NCBI RefSeq assembly: GCF_000374805.1
Contig: NZ_KB895336.1
Span: 1 to 64,000 of the forward strand
From: Chitiniphilus shinanonensis DSM 23277
Lineage (GTDB): Bacteria; Pseudomonadota; Gammaproteobacteria; Burkholderiales; Chitinibacteraceae
DNA length: 64,000 nucleotides
Reading direction: 5' to 3'
Below are positions 35,843 through 46,699 of the stretch, piece by piece (position 1 is the stretch's first letter; every line of letters begins with the position of its first letter). The notes beneath the pieces are model-generated. The model made no database searches. It saw only the letters and a program-made list of their open reading frames with translations, and had not been told where the DNA came from. Made by a program: the position numbers and the translations under genes.

Positions 35843-36436
35843 ATGAAACGGAAGCTGGTTGCCCTGGCGTTGGCGGGCGTGGTGGGGTTGTCGGCGTGCG
35901 TGCCGATGGTGTTCGTGGCCGGCGCCGCGGTCGGCGCGCTGGTCGGCTCCGATCCGCGCAATGCGCAGACCATCAAGGGCGACGTGGACCTGGGGGCCAA
36001 TATCTCCGCCAAAGTGATCGACACCTATCGCGAGCGCGCCCACGTCAACGTCAATGTGTTCAACGCCCACGTGCTGCTCACCGGCGAACTGCCGGACGAC
36101 GCGGCGCGGCAGAACGTGGCGCAGATCGCCGCCACCTGGCCCGGCGTGCGCGCGGTGTACAACGAGACGGTGGTCGCGCCGCCGTCGTCCAGCACCGACC
36201 GGCTCAACGACACCCAGCTCACCGCGCGGGTGAAGACCGCCATCCTGACCGAGGCGGGCGACGTGACCTCGATCCATTTCCTGATCACCACCGAGCGCAA
36301 GGTGGTCTACCTGATGGGCCTGGCCACCCCCGACCTGACCGAGCGTGCGGCGCGCGCCGCCAGCTTTGTCGGCGGCGTCGAGCGCGTGGTGAAATACGTG
36401 GAAGTGCTGCCGGAAGCCAAGAACAAGGCCAAGTGA
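35843..36436 (+). CDS. Dual BON-domain outer-membrane lipoprotein (DolP/YraP-like)
   Basis: The 197-aa lipoprotein has lipobox GLSAC (Cys19). Two BON domains follow: about residues 50-110 (KVIDTYRERAHVNVNVFNAHVLLTGELP) and 125-190 (VKTAILTEAGDVTSIHFLITTERKV). DolP-type proteins support envelope integrity and Bam function. It begins immediately after the diaA stop codon (TAAATG), so it is coupled, and ends at a strong terminator. Confidence 0.9.
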   Translation: MKRKLVALALAGVVGLSACVPMVFVAGAAVGALVGSDPRNAQTIKGDVDLGANISAKVIDTYRERAHVNVNVFNAHVLLTGELPDDAARQNVAQIAATWPGVRAVYNETVVAPPSSSTDRLNDTQLTARVKTAILTEAGDVTSIHFLITTERKVVYLMGLATPDLTERAARAASFVGGVERVVKYVEVLPEAKNKAK

Positions 36437-36450
36437 CATTGGCGAGAGGG

Positions 36451-36490
36451 CCAACGAAAAACGGCGCAGTCATGCGCCGTTTTTCGTTGG
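36451..36490. terminator. Bidirectional intrinsic terminator
   Basis: A perfect 18-bp stem (36451-36468 with 36473-36490) has loop GTCA, with A/T runs inside the stem on both sides. It separates the BON lipoprotein gene from the convergent tesA. Confidence 0.93.
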
Positions 36491-36532
36491 AGCTGATCGC
36501 CGAGGGCCGCGGTTTATAGCGGCTACCCGGAG

Positions 36533-37174
36533 TCACGGCCTGGCGAGCAACGGCTTCAGGTCGGCGGCGATCATCTTCGCCAGCAGCGGCTGCGCCTCGG
36601 CGGTGGGGTGCAGCTGGTCGTTCTGGAACATCGTCGGCCGCTCGATCACCGGCGCCAGCAGGAACGGCGTCAGGCCGGTGCGGTATTGCCGGGCCAGCGC
36701 GGGATAGATCTGCGCGAACGCGGCGGTGTAGTCGGGGCCGTAGTTGGGCGGCATCTGCATGCCCACCAGGTGCACCTTGGCGCCGGCGCGCTGCGCCGCC
36801 GCGATCATCGCCGCCAGGTTGTCGCGCGCCGCGTTCACCGGCAGCCCGCGCAGGCCGTCGTTGGCGCCCAGTTCGAGGATGACGATACTCGGGCTATGCT
36901 GTTTCAAGGCGGTGGGGAACCGGGTACGCCCGCCGGCGGTCGTTTCGCCGGAGACACTGGCGTTCACCACCCGGTAGTGCTTGCCCTGGCGGGCCAGTTC
37001 CGTGCCCAGCAGATTGGGCCAGGCCGCCTTGGCCTCGATGCCGTAGCCGGCGGACAGGCTGTCGCCGAACACCAGCAGAACCGGGTCCGCCGCGCGCGCG
37101 GCGGGCACCGCCGCAACCATAAGCAGGGCCAACAGCCCCATCCAGAAACGCCAACACCCGCGAAGGCCAGTCAT
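36533..37174 (-). CDS. tesA: Periplasmic GDSL esterase / thioesterase I (TesA)
   Basis: The 213-aa SGNH hydrolase has an N-terminal signal peptide (residues 1-28, ending AARA). The catalytic Ser lies in VFGDSLSAGYG near residue 37, the oxyanion Asn in LELGANDGLRG and the Asp/His pair in DQLHPTAEAQ. It is a periplasmic lysophospholipase/arylesterase/thioesterase. It is divergent from an ABC pair as in E. coli tesA-ybbA. ATG at 37186 would add four residues. A much longer frame running to 40552 is antisense to the permease and not real. Confidence 0.92.
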   Translation of the reverse strand: MTGLRGCWRFWMGLLALLMVAAVPAARAADPVLLVFGDSLSAGYGIEAKAAWPNLLGTELARQGKHYRVVNASVSGETTAGGRTRFPTALKQHSPSIVILELGANDGLRGLPVNAARDNLAAMIAAAQRAGAKVHLVGMQMPPNYGPDYTAAFAQIYPALARQYRTGLTPFLLAPVIERPTMFQNDQLHPTAEAQPLLAKMIAADLKPLLARP

Positions 37175-37175
37175 A

Positions 37176-37877
37176 GTGAATTCCATTGCCGATCGTTCTT
37201 CCTTCATGCTCGAGGCGCAGGGCCTGGGCAAGCATGTCGTTGCCGCCAACGAGGCACTCGACATCCTTGCCGACGTTTCGTTCGGCCTGCCGGCGGGGGC
37301 CAGCCTGGCCATCGTCGGCGCCAGCGGCTCCGGCAAGTCTACCCTGTTGTCGCTGCTGGCTGGCCTGGACGCCCCCAGCCGCGGCACGGTGCGGCTGGCC
37401 GGCGAGGAGCTGGGCACGCTCGACGAAGATGGCCGCGCCTTGCTGCGCGGGCGCGTGGCCGGTTTCGTGTTCCAGTCGTTCCAGCTGTTGCCGGAATTGA
37501 GCGCGCTGGAGAACGTGATGCTGCCGCTGGAACTCGCCGGACGTCGTGACGCGGCGCAGGTGGCCGGGCAATGGCTGGATCGGGTGGGGCTGGCGGCGCG
37601 GCGCGACCACACGCCGCGCACGCTGTCGGGCGGCGAGCAGCAGCGCGTGGCGCTGGCGCGCGCCTTCGCCCCGGGGCCGCAGGTGCTGTTCGCCGACGAG
37701 CCCACCGGCAGCCTGGATACCCACACCGGCGAGCGCGTCGCCGACCTGCTGTTCGAGCTGAACGCGGCCAGCGGCACCACGCTGGTGCTGGTCACCCACG
37801 ACGAGCGGCTGGCGGCGCGCTGCGGCGCGCGGTTGCGGTTGGCGGCGGGCCGCGTGATCGAGCAGGTGAATGCATGA
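37176..37877 (+). CDS. ABC transporter ATP-binding protein (YbbA family)
   Basis: The 233-aa ATPase has Walker A GASGSGKSTL near residue 48, signature LSGGEQQRVALARA near 150 and Walker B VLFADEPTGS. It belongs to the LolD/MacB-like group that energises FtsX-type permeases. GTG 37176 has GAAGG 9 nt upstream; ATG 37206 is the alternative start. Its end overlaps the permease start (ATGA). The divergent tesA neighbour matches E. coli ybbA-ybbP. Confidence 0.92.
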   Translation: MNSIADRSSFMLEAQGLGKHVVAANEALDILADVSFGLPAGASLAIVGASGSGKSTLLSLLAGLDAPSRGTVRLAGEELGTLDEDGRALLRGRVAGFVFQSFQLLPELSALENVMLPLELAGRRDAAQVAGQWLDRVGLAARRDHTPRTLSGGEQQRVALARAFAPGPQVLFADEPTGSLDTHTGERVADLLFELNAASGTTLVLVTHDERLAARCGARLRLAAGRVIEQVNA

Positions 37878-40342
37878 AGACCGCCACCCTGGTGCTGGCA
37901 TGGCGGCAGTTCCTGCGCGGCCTGCGCGCCGGCGAGCACCGCACCCTGATCGCCGCGCTGACGGTGACCATCGCCGCGCTGACCGCGGTCGGGCTGTTCG
38001 CCGGGCGCGTCAGCGGCCTGCTCAACTCCGAAGCCAACAACCTGCTGGCCGCCGACGCCGTGGTCTCCGCCGACCAGCCGCTGCCGGCGGCGCTGCGCCA
38101 AGCCGCCGAGGCGCGCGGCCTGACCACCAGCCAGACCCAGACCTTCCCGTCGATGGTGTCGGCCAACGGCGACGCCGCGCTGTCCACGCTCAAGGCCATC
38201 GCCGGACCGTACCCGCTGCGCGGCACACTGACGCTGAACGCCGGTCGCGGCGACTACACGGTCGACGCGGCACCGGCGCCGGACGTGGTGTGGGTGGACG
38301 ATCGCCTCGCCAACCGGCTGCGGCTCAAGGTGGGCGACGCAGTGCGCGTCGGCCGGCTGGAGATGAAGGTGGGCGCGCTGATCGTGCGCGAGCCCGACAT
38401 CGCCGTCGATTTCGCCGGCTTGCAGCCGCGCCTGATCATGAACGCCGAGCAGTTGCCGCAATCCGGCCTGATCGGCTTCGGCAGCCGCATCCGCTATCGC
38501 CTGCTGGTGGCCGGCGAGGCGCCGGCGGTGGCGCAGTGGCGCGCCGAGGTGGACCAGCAATTGACGCGCGGCCAGCGGCTGGAGGACGTGCGCGAATCGC
38601 AGCCGCAGGTGCGCCGCGCGCTGGAACGCGCCGAGACCTTCCTGCGGCTGGTCACGCTGCTGGCCGCCACCCTGGCCGGCACGGCGGTGCTGCTGGCGGC
38701 GCGGCGCTACAGCGCCAAGCAGGCCGACGCGGTGGCGCTGTTCGTCACCCTGGGCGCCACCCGCGCGCGCATCCGTGGCCTGCTGCTGGCCGAACTGGCG
38801 CTGATCTTCGGTCTGGCGGCGGCGTTGGGCGGAGCCATAGGCTGGCTCACCCAGGAAGCGCTGGCGCTGCTGGTCCGCGACAACCTGCCCGACGCGCTGC
38901 CCTTGCCCACGCCGTGGCCGTGGCTGGCCGCGTGCGCGCTCGGGCTGGTGCTGCTGGCGGGCGTGGCCGGGCCGACGCTGATGCAGCTGGCGCGCACCCC
39001 GCCGGCGCGGGTGCTGCGGCGCGAGCTGACCGCGCCGGCGCGGCTGTGGCTCAGCCTGCTGGTCACCCTGGGTGCGGCGGCCGCCGTGTTCCTGTGGGTG
39101 GCGGGCGACGCGCGGCTGGCGCTGTACGTGGCGGGCGGCATCGTCGGCGCGGTGGCGGTGTCCGGGCTGGTGGGCTGGCTGCTGCTGTGGCTGGTGTCGC
39201 GCTTCGCCAACGGCTTCGCCGCGCGCATCGCATTGCGGCAACTGGCGCGGCGCATCTGGCTGTCGGCGGCGCAACTGGGCGCGCTGGCGGTCGGGCTGCT
39301 GGGGCTGTGGCTGCTGACCGCGGTCGAGCGCGATCTGCTGTCGGCGTGGGAGCGGCGCCTGCCGGCGGACGCGCCCAACGTCTTCGCCTTCAATATCCAG
39401 CCGGATCAGGCGCGCGCCTTCCAGGATGCGCTGACGGCGGGGCAGGTGAAGGACGCGGTGCTGCAACCGATGATCCGTGGGCGCTGGGTGGAGCGGAACG
39501 GCCAGCCGGTGCAGCCGCGCGGCTACGACGACGAGCGCGCGCGGCGACTGGCCGAGCGCGAGTTCAACCTGTCGTGGGGCGAGATGCTGCGCGAGGACAA
39601 CCGGCTCACCGCCGGCAAGCCGCTGGCGGGCGAGGGCTGGTCGGTCGAGGCCGGGCTGGCGGAAACGCTGGGCATCCGCCTGGGCGACACACTGACCTTC
39701 GACGTGGCCGGCACCCGGGTCGCCGGCAAGGTGGTCAACCTGCGCACCGTCGAGTGGGATTCGTTCCGGGTGAACTTCTTCGTGGTCGGCACGCCCGCGA
39801 TGTTCGCCGACGCGCCGACCAGCCTGATCACCAGCTTCCATCTGCCGCCCGAGCGTCGCGCCGAGGTGGCGCAGTGGTCGCGTGCCTTTCCCAACGTGAC
39901 CTTCATCGATGTCGGCGAGGTGCTGGGCGAGGTGCGGCGGGTGCTGGGCCTGTCGGCCAGCGTGCTGCGGCTGGTGTTCGTGTTCTGCCTGGCCGCTGGC
40001 GTGGTGGTGCTGCTGGCCGCGCTGGAAACCTCTGCCCCCGAGCGACGGCGCGAAGCGGCGGTGCTGCGCGCGCTGGGCGCGCACAGCCGGCAGATCGCCG
40101 CCATCCAGTGGTGGGAAGGCGCGCTGATCGGCGCCACCGCCGGGCTGGTCGCCGGCCTGGCCGCCAGCGTCACCGGCTGGGCGGTGGGGCGGCAGGTACT
40201 GGAACTGCCGGTTTCCTTCAACGCCTGGCTGCCGCTGGCCAGCCTGCTGGCCGGCCTGGTGCTCGCCGGCGGCGTGACGCTGTGGGAACGACGCCGGCTG
40301 TCGCGCGAATCGGCGCTGGGGTTGCTGCGCGATCCTTCGTAG
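37874..40342 (+). CDS. FtsX-like ABC permease (YbbP family)
   Basis: The 822-aa membrane protein has a first helix near residue 25, a periplasmic region, then clusters of helices (about 255-460) with two FtsX domains, the second near 690-815. The internal duplication is typical of YbbP. FtsX signatures are VALFVTLGATRARIRGLLL and REAAVLRALGAHSRQIAAI. It forms a complex with the preceding ATPase, probably working on envelope lipids or lipoproteins; the true substrate is unknown. Confidence 0.9.
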   Translation: MKTATLVLAWRQFLRGLRAGEHRTLIAALTVTIAALTAVGLFAGRVSGLLNSEANNLLAADAVVSADQPLPAALRQAAEARGLTTSQTQTFPSMVSANGDAALSTLKAIAGPYPLRGTLTLNAGRGDYTVDAAPAPDVVWVDDRLANRLRLKVGDAVRVGRLEMKVGALIVREPDIAVDFAGLQPRLIMNAEQLPQSGLIGFGSRIRYRLLVAGEAPAVAQWRAEVDQQLTRGQRLEDVRESQPQVRRALERAETFLRLVTLLAATLAGTAVLLAARRYSAKQADAVALFVTLGATRARIRGLLLAELALIFGLAAALGGAIGWLTQEALALLVRDNLPDALPLPTPWPWLAACALGLVLLAGVAGPTLMQLARTPPARVLRRELTAPARLWLSLLVTLGAAAAVFLWVAGDARLALYVAGGIVGAVAVSGLVGWLLLWLVSRFANGFAARIALRQLARRIWLSAAQLGALAVGLLGLWLLTAVERDLLSAWERRLPADAPNVFAFNIQPDQARAFQDALTAGQVKDAVLQPMIRGRWVERNGQPVQPRGYDDERARRLAEREFNLSWGEMLREDNRLTAGKPLAGEGWSVEAGLAETLGIRLGDTLTFDVAGTRVAGKVVNLRTVEWDSFRVNFFVVGTPAMFADAPTSLITSFHLPPERRAEVAQWSRAFPNVTFIDVGEVLGEVRRVLGLSASVLRLVFVFCLAAGVVVLLAALETSAPERRREAAVLRALGAHSRQIAAIQWWEGALIGATAGLVAGLAASVTGWAVGRQVLELPVSFNAWLPLASLLAGLVLAGGVTLWERRRLSRESALGLLRDPS

Positions 40343-40354
40343 CTGGCAGACAAA

Positions 40355-40497
40355 CCCCAAATCTTGGACCACAGAGAACACAGAGGACACGGAGTTACAC
40401 AGAGAAAGGCAAGACAGAGAAAACGCTTCATCACCCATGAAGGTTTTCTCCGTGATGCTCTGTGTTCTCAGTGTTCTCTGTGTTTCAAGACTTGGGG
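40355..40497. repeat. Long palindromic repeat, copy A
   Basis: This 143-bp imperfect inverted repeat begins CCCCAAATCTTGGACC and ends CAAGACTTGGGG. The arms are built of CAGAGAACAC-type units (ACAGAGGACACGGAG on the left, CTCCGTGATGCTCTGTG on the right) around a core TTCATCACCCATGAA. It lies 12 bp after the permease gene. It is in opposite orientation to copy B. Confidence 0.88.
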
Positions 40498-40605
40498 TTT
40501 CAACCACCCCCATGCGCCCCAGGCATATCGGCCATGCACAATCGCGGAACAATGGGCGGGGCCGGTTTGATTTATGCTGCCGTCACAGAGCGACGGAGAA
40601 CGACA

Positions 40606-40929
40606 ATGCCCAATTGGTACGTGGATAACGTGGTGCCGCTGTTGGTGGCGGCGGCGGTGGTCTGCCTGGTGTGCTACACGCTGCTGGCGCGGCTGCTGTT
40701 CGACTATATCTCGCGCAACTATGGCGACCTGCTGCCCAAGCGCGAAAGCTGGGTGCACGGCGACGACATCGCCATGGGCTTCGTCACCACGCTGGGCGAC
40801 ATCAGCCGCAGCGGCAACTGGCGCCGCATCGAAAGCGCCTTCTGGCGCCGCCTGTTCGTCGCCAACAAAGTGATTGGCTGGACAGGCGTGCTGTCGCTGA
40901 CGGTGTTTCTGGCGGGGTTCTTCGTTTAG
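40606..40929 (+). CDS. Small membrane protein of unknown function
   Basis: The 107-aa protein starts at ATG 40606 behind CGGAGAA. It has two membrane helices, residues 9-30 (VVPLLVAAAVVCLVCYTLL) and 88-107. The loop between is polar and basic (ISRNYGDLLPKRESWVHGDD, SRSGNWRRIESAFWRRL). I recognise no family. It is bracketed by inverted copies of the palindromic repeat, 108 bp upstream and 11 bp downstream. An upstream frame beginning at 40462 runs inside the repeat and is rejected. Confidence 0.7.
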   Translation: MPNWYVDNVVPLLVAAAVVCLVCYTLLARLLFDYISRNYGDLLPKRESWVHGDDIAMGFVTTLGDISRSGNWRRIESAFWRRLFVANKVIGWTGVLSLTVFLAGFFV

Positions 40930-40940
40930 CGGGGCTGGAA

Positions 40941-41094
40941 CCCCAAATCTTGGACCACAGAGAACACGAAGAACACAGAGCATCACGGAGAAAACCTTCA
41001 TGGGGATGAAGTGTTCTCTCCTTGTTTTGCCTTCCTCTGTGAAACTCCGTGTCCTCTGTGTTCTCTGTGGTCCAAGATTTGGGGTTTCAACCCC
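40941..41094. repeat. Long palindromic repeat, copy B
   Basis: This 154-bp imperfect inverted repeat has ends CCCCAAATCTTGGACC and GGTCCAAGATTTGGGG, exact complements over 16 bp. Its reverse complement matches copy A closely along the full length, including ACAGAGGACACGGAGTT and AAGGTTTTCTCCGTGATG. It lies between the 107-aa gene and recQ. Confidence 0.9.
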
Positions 41095-41117
41095 GCAAAC
41101 AGTCTCCCGCCCCGCCG

Positions 41118-42914
<1,797 letters not shown>

Positions 42915-42931
42915 GCGGCCAGGAAGGATGA

Positions 42932-44995
<2,064 letters not shown>

Positions 44996-45037
44996 TCCGG
45001 CGGCCGGCGATCCGGTGGCCGGCGCTCCGGCGAGAAG

Positions 45038-45060
45038 GCCCGCGGCGACGCGGGCTTTTT
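45038..45060 (+). terminator. Intrinsic terminator of argS
   Basis: GCCCGCG pairs with CGCGGGC over GCGA and is followed by TTTTTT, 42 nt past the argS stop. Confidence 0.9.
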
Positions 45061-45066
45061 TGCGGG

Positions 45067-45095
45067 CAAAAAAAGTGGCCCCGGGGAGGGGCCAC
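45067..45095 (-). terminator. Intrinsic terminator of the Do-type protease gene
   Basis: GTGGCCCC (45075-45082) pairs with GGGGCCAC (45088-45095) over GGGGA. On the minus strand it is followed by a run of seven T. It lies about 100 nt past the end of the protease gene and back-to-back with the argS terminator. Confidence 0.85.
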
Positions 45096-45196
45096 AACCA
45101 CGATGCCTTGCGTCGATTCAAGGGTCGAGGGGGATGAAGGAGTGTCGGCACTGCGTACCGGGCAACCCGCCGACCGGGGCTGCCCGGGTGAAGCAA

Positions 45197-46699
45197 CTAA
45201 CCGAGGTCGAGCGGGATGAAGATTTGCGCTTCGCCGCGTTGCACCAGCAAGGCAATGTGTTCGCCGGCCTTGCCGATCAACTGGCGCAGCTGCGACATGT
45301 CCTTGACCGTGGCGCCGTTCACCGCCAGCACCACGTCGCCCGGCTCGATACCGGCGCGCGCGGCGGGGCCGGTCGCGTCCTGCACCACCAGCCCGCCGTT
45401 CAGGCCGCTGCTGTTGCGCTCCTGCGGCGACAGCGGCCGCAGCGACAGGCCGAGCTTGCCGGCGGCGGTCGGCGCGGCATTGCTGGCCACCTGGTCGGTC
45501 TTCATCTCGCCGACGCGCACATTCAGATCCTGTTCCTTGCCGTTGCGCCAGATGCGCAGCGTGGCGCTGCTGCCGGGGGCGGTGTTGGCCACCAGCGGCG
45601 GCAGGTCGGCGGAGCCGTCGATCTGGCGCTCGTTGAACTTGAGGATGATGTCGCCGGGCTTGAGGCCGGCCTTGGCGCCCGCGCCCTGGTCGTCCACGCC
45701 GGACACCAGCGCGCCGTGCGGCGATTTCAGGCCGAACGACTGCGCCAGCGACTGGTTCACGTCCTGGATCGCCACACCGAGCTGGCCACGCGTGACCTTG
45801 CCCTTGCTGACGATCTGCGCCTGCACGTTGCGCGCCACGTCGATGGGAATGGCGAACGACAGGCCCTGGAAGCCGCCGCTGCGCGAGTAGATCTGCGAAT
45901 TGATGCCGACCACTTCGCCGTTCATGTTGAACAGCGGGCCGCCGGAATTGCCCGGATTGACCGCGGCGTCGGTCTGGATGAAGGGCACATAGCCGTCGTC
46001 GGGCAGCGAGCGCGACTTGGCCGAGACGATGCCGGCGGTGACCGAGTTCTCGAAGCCGAACGGCGAGCCGATGGCCAGCACCCAGTCGCCGACGCGGGTG
46101 CTGTCGGGGTTGCCGAGCTTCACGGTGGGCAGATCCTTGGCCTGGATGCGCAGCACGGCGATGTCGCTGACCTTGTCCAGGCCCAGCACCTTGGCCTTGA
46201 ACTCGCGCTTGTCGGTGAGCTTGACCGTGACTTCGTCGGCGTCGGCCACCACGTGCGCATTGGTCAGGATCAGGCCGTCGGCGCTGACGATGAAGCCGGA
46301 GCCCAGGCCGCGGATCGGCGTCGGCCGTTGCAGGCGCGGGCCGAAATGGCGGAAGAACTGCGACAGCGGATCGTCGTCGTCCAGGTCGGGCAAGCCGCCG
46401 CCGGCGGCGGTCTTGGTCATGCCGGTGACGCTGATGTTGACCACGGCCGGGCCGTAGCGCGCCACGATGTCGCCGAACTGCGGCAGGCCGGCGCGGGCGC
46501 CGGCGATCGGCGGCGCGGCCGGTGCGGGGGGCGCGGCCACGGCGGGCGCCAGGGCGGCAGCGGGTTCCACCGAAGCGTCGGCACGGGGCAGGAAGCGGTC
46601 GCCCATCACCGCCACCGCGCCGCCGAGCACGGCGGCCAGGGTCAGAGCCAGCAGCTTCTGGCTGAAAGCCAGGCCGGAACGGGTCGTCGATTGGACCAT
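45197..46699 (-). CDS. Do family periplasmic serine endoprotease (DegP/MucD type)
   Basis: The 500-aa protease has an N-terminal membrane signal (residues 14-36, LAFSQKLLALTLAAVLGGAV) and a trypsin-like domain. The triad is His in TNAHVVADADEV, Asp in KVSDIAVLRI and Ser in NPGNSGGPLF. Two PDZ domains follow (about 285-370 and 395-490). It degrades or refolds misfolded envelope proteins. ATG 46699 follows GGAGG at 5 nt. Nothing visible distinguishes DegP, DegQ and MucD with certainty. Confidence 0.94.
   Translation of the reverse strand: MVQSTTRSGLAFSQKLLALTLAAVLGGAVAVMGDRFLPRADASVEPAAALAPAVAAPPAPAAPPIAGARAGLPQFGDIVARYGPAVVNISVTGMTKTAAGGGLPDLDDDDPLSQFFRHFGPRLQRPTPIRGLGSGFIVSADGLILTNAHVVADADEVTVKLTDKREFKAKVLGLDKVSDIAVLRIQAKDLPTVKLGNPDSTRVGDWVLAIGSPFGFENSVTAGIVSAKSRSLPDDGYVPFIQTDAAVNPGNSGGPLFNMNGEVVGINSQIYSRSGGFQGLSFAIPIDVARNVQAQIVSKGKVTRGQLGVAIQDVNQSLAQSFGLKSPHGALVSGVDDQGAGAKAGLKPGDIILKFNERQIDGSADLPPLVANTAPGSSATLRIWRNGKEQDLNVRVGEMKTDQVASNAAPTAAGKLGLSLRPLSPQERNSSGLNGGLVVQDATGPAARAGIEPGDVVLAVNGATVKDMSQLRQLIGKAGEHIALLVQRGEAQIFIPLDLG

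Follow-up and report, generated by a model that had tools for sequence, protein, structure and literature searches.

The DNA analyzed here (the window) is a stretch of 64,000 nucleotides from Chitiniphilus shinanonensis DSM 23277. In the region of interest, an ORF for an FtsX-family permease is followed by a gene for a small predicted membrane protein, by recQ and by argS, and palindromic elements lie between these genes (Table 1). The small protein has no match in Pfam or NCBIfam, and the true start of recQ is probably inside its ORF, at a coordinate lower than 43013.

Table 1. Genes and palindromic elements of the locus, in positions of the window
Feature	Position	Strand	Remarks
FtsX-family ABC permease ORF	37571..40342	+	PF02687, E 1.9e-20; stop lies before copy A; true start near 37868
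Palindromic element copy A (AAACCCCAAATCTTGGACCACAGAG...CAAGACTTGGGGTTT)	40352..40500	.	about 10 nt past the permease stop
107-aa predicted membrane protein gene	40606..40929	+	between A and B, outside the element; vertically inherited
Palindromic element copy B, opposite in orientation to A	40938..41087	.	between the stops of the 107-aa gene and recQ
recQ helicase ORF	41118..43013	-	RQC, HRDC and DEAD domains; stop faces copy B
Element-end fragment (CCCCAAATCTTC) just outside copy C	43000..43011	+
Palindromic element copy C	43028..43187	.	flanked by the 5' ends of recQ (-) and argS (+)

The earlier note on this DNA had described two inverted palindromic repeats of about 150 bp, and these are real: A and the minus strand of B are 91% identical over 143 nt (E 3e-51), and each is an imperfect palindrome with arms of 56-68 nt that are 82-84% complementary. 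The boundaries given there for copy A, 40355-40497, are exact, whereas copy B, which begins at 40941, ends about 10 nt before the proposed 41094, at 41084 (41087 including an AAA/TTT extension), and has a length of about 144-150 nt instead of 154. Copy A also matches its own reverse at 70%, and as every copy is itself palindromic, the orientation of a copy says little. In a covariance model, the scores are E ~1e-34 to 1e-36, with A and B in the training set. The view that palindromic units with ends CCCCAAATCTTG are dispersed is supported as well, but the picture of two repeats had missed both the third copy, C, at 43031-43184, and the genome-wide family described below.

The presence of near-identical inverted copies on both sides of the 107-aa gene could suggest that the gene is the cargo of a mobile cassette, which the earlier note had considered. 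In C. eburneus, however, the gene is 92% identical and the gene order is unchanged with copy A missing, and in Chitinolyticbacter albus the gene sits after the permease with no repeat there. The matching segments of permease end and gene also stay together in three further genomes (the congener G002, G003 and G013), and in the host the copies found elsewhere follow other genes. The conserved synteny lacking repeats thus rules out the cassette for all practical purposes, and by the same comparison the gene and its neighbours are vertically conserved, the gene not being cargo. As A follows the stop codon of the permease and B follows that of the small gene, the apparent bracketing is a product of the habit of these elements to lie behind stop codons. 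In the congener G002, the orthologue of the 107-aa gene is followed in tandem by a second, apparently related small membrane protein gene (L069:1055-1545).

A dispersed hairpin family behind gene ends

A and B are two members of a dispersed non-coding hairpin family behind gene ends. The core CACRGAGRRCACRGAG, (CACRGAGRR)n, has 308 exact matches in the 4.15-Mb host genome, and the reversed pattern has none, a difference that chance does not come near to explaining. Since the 58 elements that were read directly contain 2.5 core matches each, the genome is extrapolated to hold about 120 copies. All 58 are non-coding and palindromic, with lengths of 128-218 bp, and they are built from two inverted arms of about 60 nt that contain a 9-nt periodic core, (CACRGAGRR)3-4, and enclose a copy-specific, fast-changing centre. 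The arms follow the consensus AAACCCCAAATCTTGAAMCACAGAGRRCACRGAGARCACRGAGNNNCACRGAGAAAAC and are capped in the host lineage by AAACCCCAAATCTTGAA. Within units 1-3 most CAC.GAG positions are nearly invariant (95-100%, two at 88%), and the R positions of the core differ mostly by A/G transitions. The centres are unrelated between most copies, exceptions being A/B, L026/L027/L031 and L039/L042/L047. Two elements, L059 and L035, have ends with short tandem extensions (TTCAGGGG three times, and a repeated CAGATTTGGGGTTTGACC end).

The arms are as similar within copies as between copies (identity 0.82), which would be expected if a motif were spread by biased transformation and homogenized by recombination in the manner of DNA uptake sequences (DUS). 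The host is placed in Neisseriales, and inverted uptake-sequence pairs, which in Neisseria and Haemophilus likewise form gene-end hairpins from short words, are reported as terminators in work to which PMC2267715 refers. Yet single units are not scattered in genes (five CACRGAG outside elements in the window, where DUS-like words were not found), the unit is longer, the copy number is far below that of DUS, and the same core occurs in Bacteroidota and Gemmatimonadota. We consider such a drive highly improbable.

With respect to their address, nearly all members of the family come after a stop codon: 62 stop codons adjoin the 58 elements at a median distance of 17.5 nt, as determined by home-made gene calling with the elements masked, and closeness to stop codons is the only positional claim that we make. 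Copy C is the sole case of a placement between divergent genes among these 58. An enrichment between convergent genes appeared suggestive on a first pass and is not claimed, as P was 0.45 once elements were masked; gene-orientation classes around the elements do not differ significantly from the background of the window. Beyond the arms, the flanks are more complementary than mismatched pairs of flanks (P ~0.002), which in part is due to GA-rich outer arms common to some copies. Such outer arms (GGGAAGGGAGAAGGG / CCCTTCTCCCTTCCC) recur at L027, L031, L042, L047, L057 and L062. The elements are frequently located within the loop of another hairpin. Long unique stems enclose the element at L032, L036, L045 and copy B, and in a viral contig as well as in a Gemmatirosa replicon a palindrome of CGCAAAG or CGCAGAG type has a CACAGAG palindrome nested in its loop, which fits a preference for hairpin loops. 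Sister repeat words of the same style (CGCAGAGRRCGCAGAG, CGCAAAGRCGCAAAG, CACGGATTAACACGGATT) occur nearby at L103, L188, L218, L236, L367 and L368, and at times form palindromes around a CACAGAG palindrome.

Orthologous sites, other bacteria and viral contigs

About 1.4 Mb of C. eburneus were compared, and for about 21 sites both flanks could be aligned. Some two thirds of these sites are filled in both species, and recent movement is therefore modest. Between orthologous elements the arms are 0.81 identical and the centres 0.63. Empty sites, which the earlier note had proposed to look for in sister strains, do exist in this species: at seven of the about 21 sites (L116, L120, L137, L145, L147, L154 and copy A) C. 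eburneus has no full element. L119, L130 and L149 do not count among these, as inspection by eye shows a diverged element at each. Absence can mean loss, as at the L145 site both ends are kept and the middle is gone, i.e. a deletion remnant. Folding of the six remnant-free sites is better than that of at least 94% of shuffles in five cases; the site of copy A, which in C. eburneus is the hairpin GAGGGGGGCACCCCCCTC, folds better than about 90%. The slot behind a stop codon is thus occupied by one hairpin or another. Copy B has a diverged orthologue in C. eburneus, and copy C is also found there. Copy B is ancestral in the genus; copy A originated later than B or separately from it, probably by local copying of B in inverted orientation. 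In C. eburneus, GTGTGAGGAGT-type hairpins are seen at the gene ends matching L116, L120 and L137, and a palindromic insert of about 260 bp (CATCCAATGTTTCGCGACAGCG..., L064:4330-4590), possibly a miniature element, lies beside the copy B orthologue.

The wider distribution is patchy. Set against the 308 exact cores of the host, the counts in a set of 61 relatives are 35 in C. eburneus, 48-291 in another genus of the same family, termed g7 (two genomes with 211-291) and 50 in the genome G007. No exact core was found in the congener G002, which has at most three weak elements by covariance model, or in the majority of the remaining genera of the family. Phylum-wide, 44 of 398 genomes have a match, the maximum being 152 in a genome from another class, and many of the single matches may be due to chance. 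Palindromes with the same core also occur outside the phylum, in Gemmatirosa (Gemmatimonadota) and Bacteroides (Bacteroidota). In Bacteroides, 8 of 11 loci (two orthologous) have the element no more than about 10 nt from an annotated stop codon, behind miaB, gmd, dnaN, pheS and others. The Bacteroides 'plasmid' records concerned contain housekeeping genes and probably represent pieces of the chromosome, which leaves the local reading unaffected. The statement of the earlier note that similar sequences occur in scattered bacteria is thus correct, with the reversed word as control.

In viral contigs, a core 16-mer and an 18-mer each occur in at least 120 stretches, versus 2 for the reversed 18-mer. 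By a simple test, an inverted partner is present at 16 of 90 viral occurrences. With crude ORF calling, 34% of the intergenic matches lie at most 30 nt from the 3' end of a gene, compared to 18% of random intergenic positions. Of 43 parsed relatives, 40 have an empty phage junction AACTAACC/ATGGCAAC (TAACC/ATG), and in the other three it is filled, as AATTAACC/ACAGAG.../ATG or a longer form; at another phage junction, 1-8 in-frame units are found just before the older start codon in 23 of 41 relatives. The phage gene starts concerned (L569-L591) have in-frame 9-nt units, (ACAGAGGAC)n, that encode Thr-Glu-Asp repeats. As the viral insertions are single arms and not palindromes, we infer from sequence and address that they are the same element as the chromosomal palindromes. 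Because exact empty sites exist for the single arms in phages, the insertion rule is open to test.

Could all these sequences be tandem 9-nt minisatellites that arose independently by slippage, with palindromes as a secondary outcome? The 9-nt periodicity, the variation in unit number at the phage gene start and tandem runs in L014 and G007 would agree with slippage, but it would not account for one core that recurs in several phyla with specific ends and a degeneracy limited to purines, for the repeated placement behind stop codons, for inverted partner arms, or for arms at unrelated sites that were copied including their ends and centres (A/B, L026/L027/L031). An origin by slippage is thus very unlikely.

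Role in RNA, mobility and relation to known families

The earlier note had also considered processing or termination structures in RNA. Such a function is possible, and position and predicted stability make an involvement in mRNA 3' ends plausible, but neither A nor B has a T-tract terminator, and the terminator count in 36000-46000 equals that of shuffles. In a stronger version, the elements would be selected, functional 3'-UTR RNA hairpins that spread horizontally with genes and have no transposition system of their own; the roles proposed are those of bidirectional terminators, of mRNA 3'-end protectors or of RNase III targets. The tight position at stop codons, the very stable predicted folds, the better conservation of arms than of centres between species and the unrelated hairpins at the element-less sister sites all point in this direction. 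Covariation of the arms, however, is absent (88.3% paired versus 88.5% in shuffles), and without compensatory changes it is the sequence that is conserved, the structure following from it. Rfam covariance models gave only sub-threshold matches to miRNA hairpins. Moreover, apart from the lack of T-tract terminators at A and B, the patchy bursts, the absence from close relatives and the existence of one-arm versions do not fit, and we regard the stronger version as rather unlikely.

If the elements are mobile, REP sequences are an obvious comparison. REP, BIME and REPIN elements are extragenic, of high copy number and made of short conserved units that are paired in inverted orientation around a variable spacer (PMC3733652, PMC2817692). 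The family described here shares these properties, and its inverted pairs at the ends of genes look like REPINs that could be moved by a RAYT (Y1 HUH transposase); most carrier genomes indeed encode a PF01797 protein. The host and C. eburneus, however, have no PF01797 match, non-carrier genomes have RAYTs as well, and the core flanks none of 20 RAYT loci in carrier genomes. Furthermore, the arms are about 60 nt long with a 9-nt periodic core and have no conserved tag (GTAG near the end in 5 of 38, CGTC in 1 of 38). A link to RAYT is therefore rejected for the host genome and weak elsewhere, and a RAYT-driven spread is altogether very improbable.

Two families of Enterobacterales, ERIC/IRU and YPAL, come closer in size, being 127-168-bp non-coding, intergenic, imperfect palindromes that are MITE-like, co-transcribed with their neighbours and proposed to affect mRNA stability (PMC2229807). 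The present elements differ from these in sequence, host range and ends, in the strong stop-codon habit and in the occurrence of the core in several phyla, and they have neither TA ends (TA near the ends in 6 of 38) nor a target duplication. In case of Neisseria, the Correia/NEMIS elements are MITE-like hairpins of about 107/155 bp with TA ends, target duplication and a 24-bp TIR, and they are proposed RNase III targets (PMC2229807). Despite the likeness of MITE-like hairpins within Neisseriales, the family lacks all three of these structural features and is set apart by description. We know of no sequence relation between the two. The family is akin to ERIC, REP and Correia in kind but lacks those defining features of REP, and of MITEs that make duplications, for which it was tested.

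Dispersed, patchily distributed, nested in hairpins, settled behind stop codons, better conserved in arms than in centres, and present or absent at orthologous sites, the elements in our judgement narrowly favour a family of non-autonomous MITE- or REP-like palindromes that settle in gene-end hairpins. Copy number, patchiness, site polymorphism and whole-element duplicates with common centres (A/B and L026/L027/L031) argue for such a spread, and the elements share with MITEs that they are dispersed, non-coding, shorter than 300 bp and bounded by terminal inverted repeats. The non-autonomous reading is weakened by the fact that neither a transposase of the RAYT type nor a target duplication was found; the search for duplications suggested by the earlier note gave no excess of direct repeats at any offset. 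Most centres are, moreover, unrelated between copies, unlike in ordinary MITEs. Mechanistically, spread would be due to a recombinase that works in trans on DNA in hairpin or single-stranded form and leaves no target duplication. The elements would settle a few bases behind stop codons, with a preference for the loops of existing gene-end hairpins, and amplification would occur in bursts in some lineages. Once transcribed, the elements may form long 3'-UTR hairpins that affect 3' ends or mRNA decay.

It is a more tentative idea, which we consider possible but would not presume, that all carriers share a single mobile superfamily with a conserved (CACRGAGRR)n core and lineage-specific ends, found in at least three phyla and in viral contigs, that inserts without target duplication into hairpin loops or stop-start junctions behind stop codons. 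Searches of the literature by sequence words and topic, with incomplete coverage and hence no proof of novelty, gave no paper on the family, and searches with oligonucleotides gave only unrelated papers plus one Bacteroides fragilis primer that contains the core. Dispersed palindromes are well known, but the described families do not usually extend beyond one genus or family, and a transposase is linked to many of them. Here, the same non-coding core lies behind stop codons in Pseudomonadota, Bacteroidota, Gemmatimonadota and viral contigs, and it has the look of a parasitic or regulatory element of DNA that is as yet unnamed. If it is one mobile family, it would be a widespread gene-end parasite or regulatory element that has been overlooked because it is non-coding.
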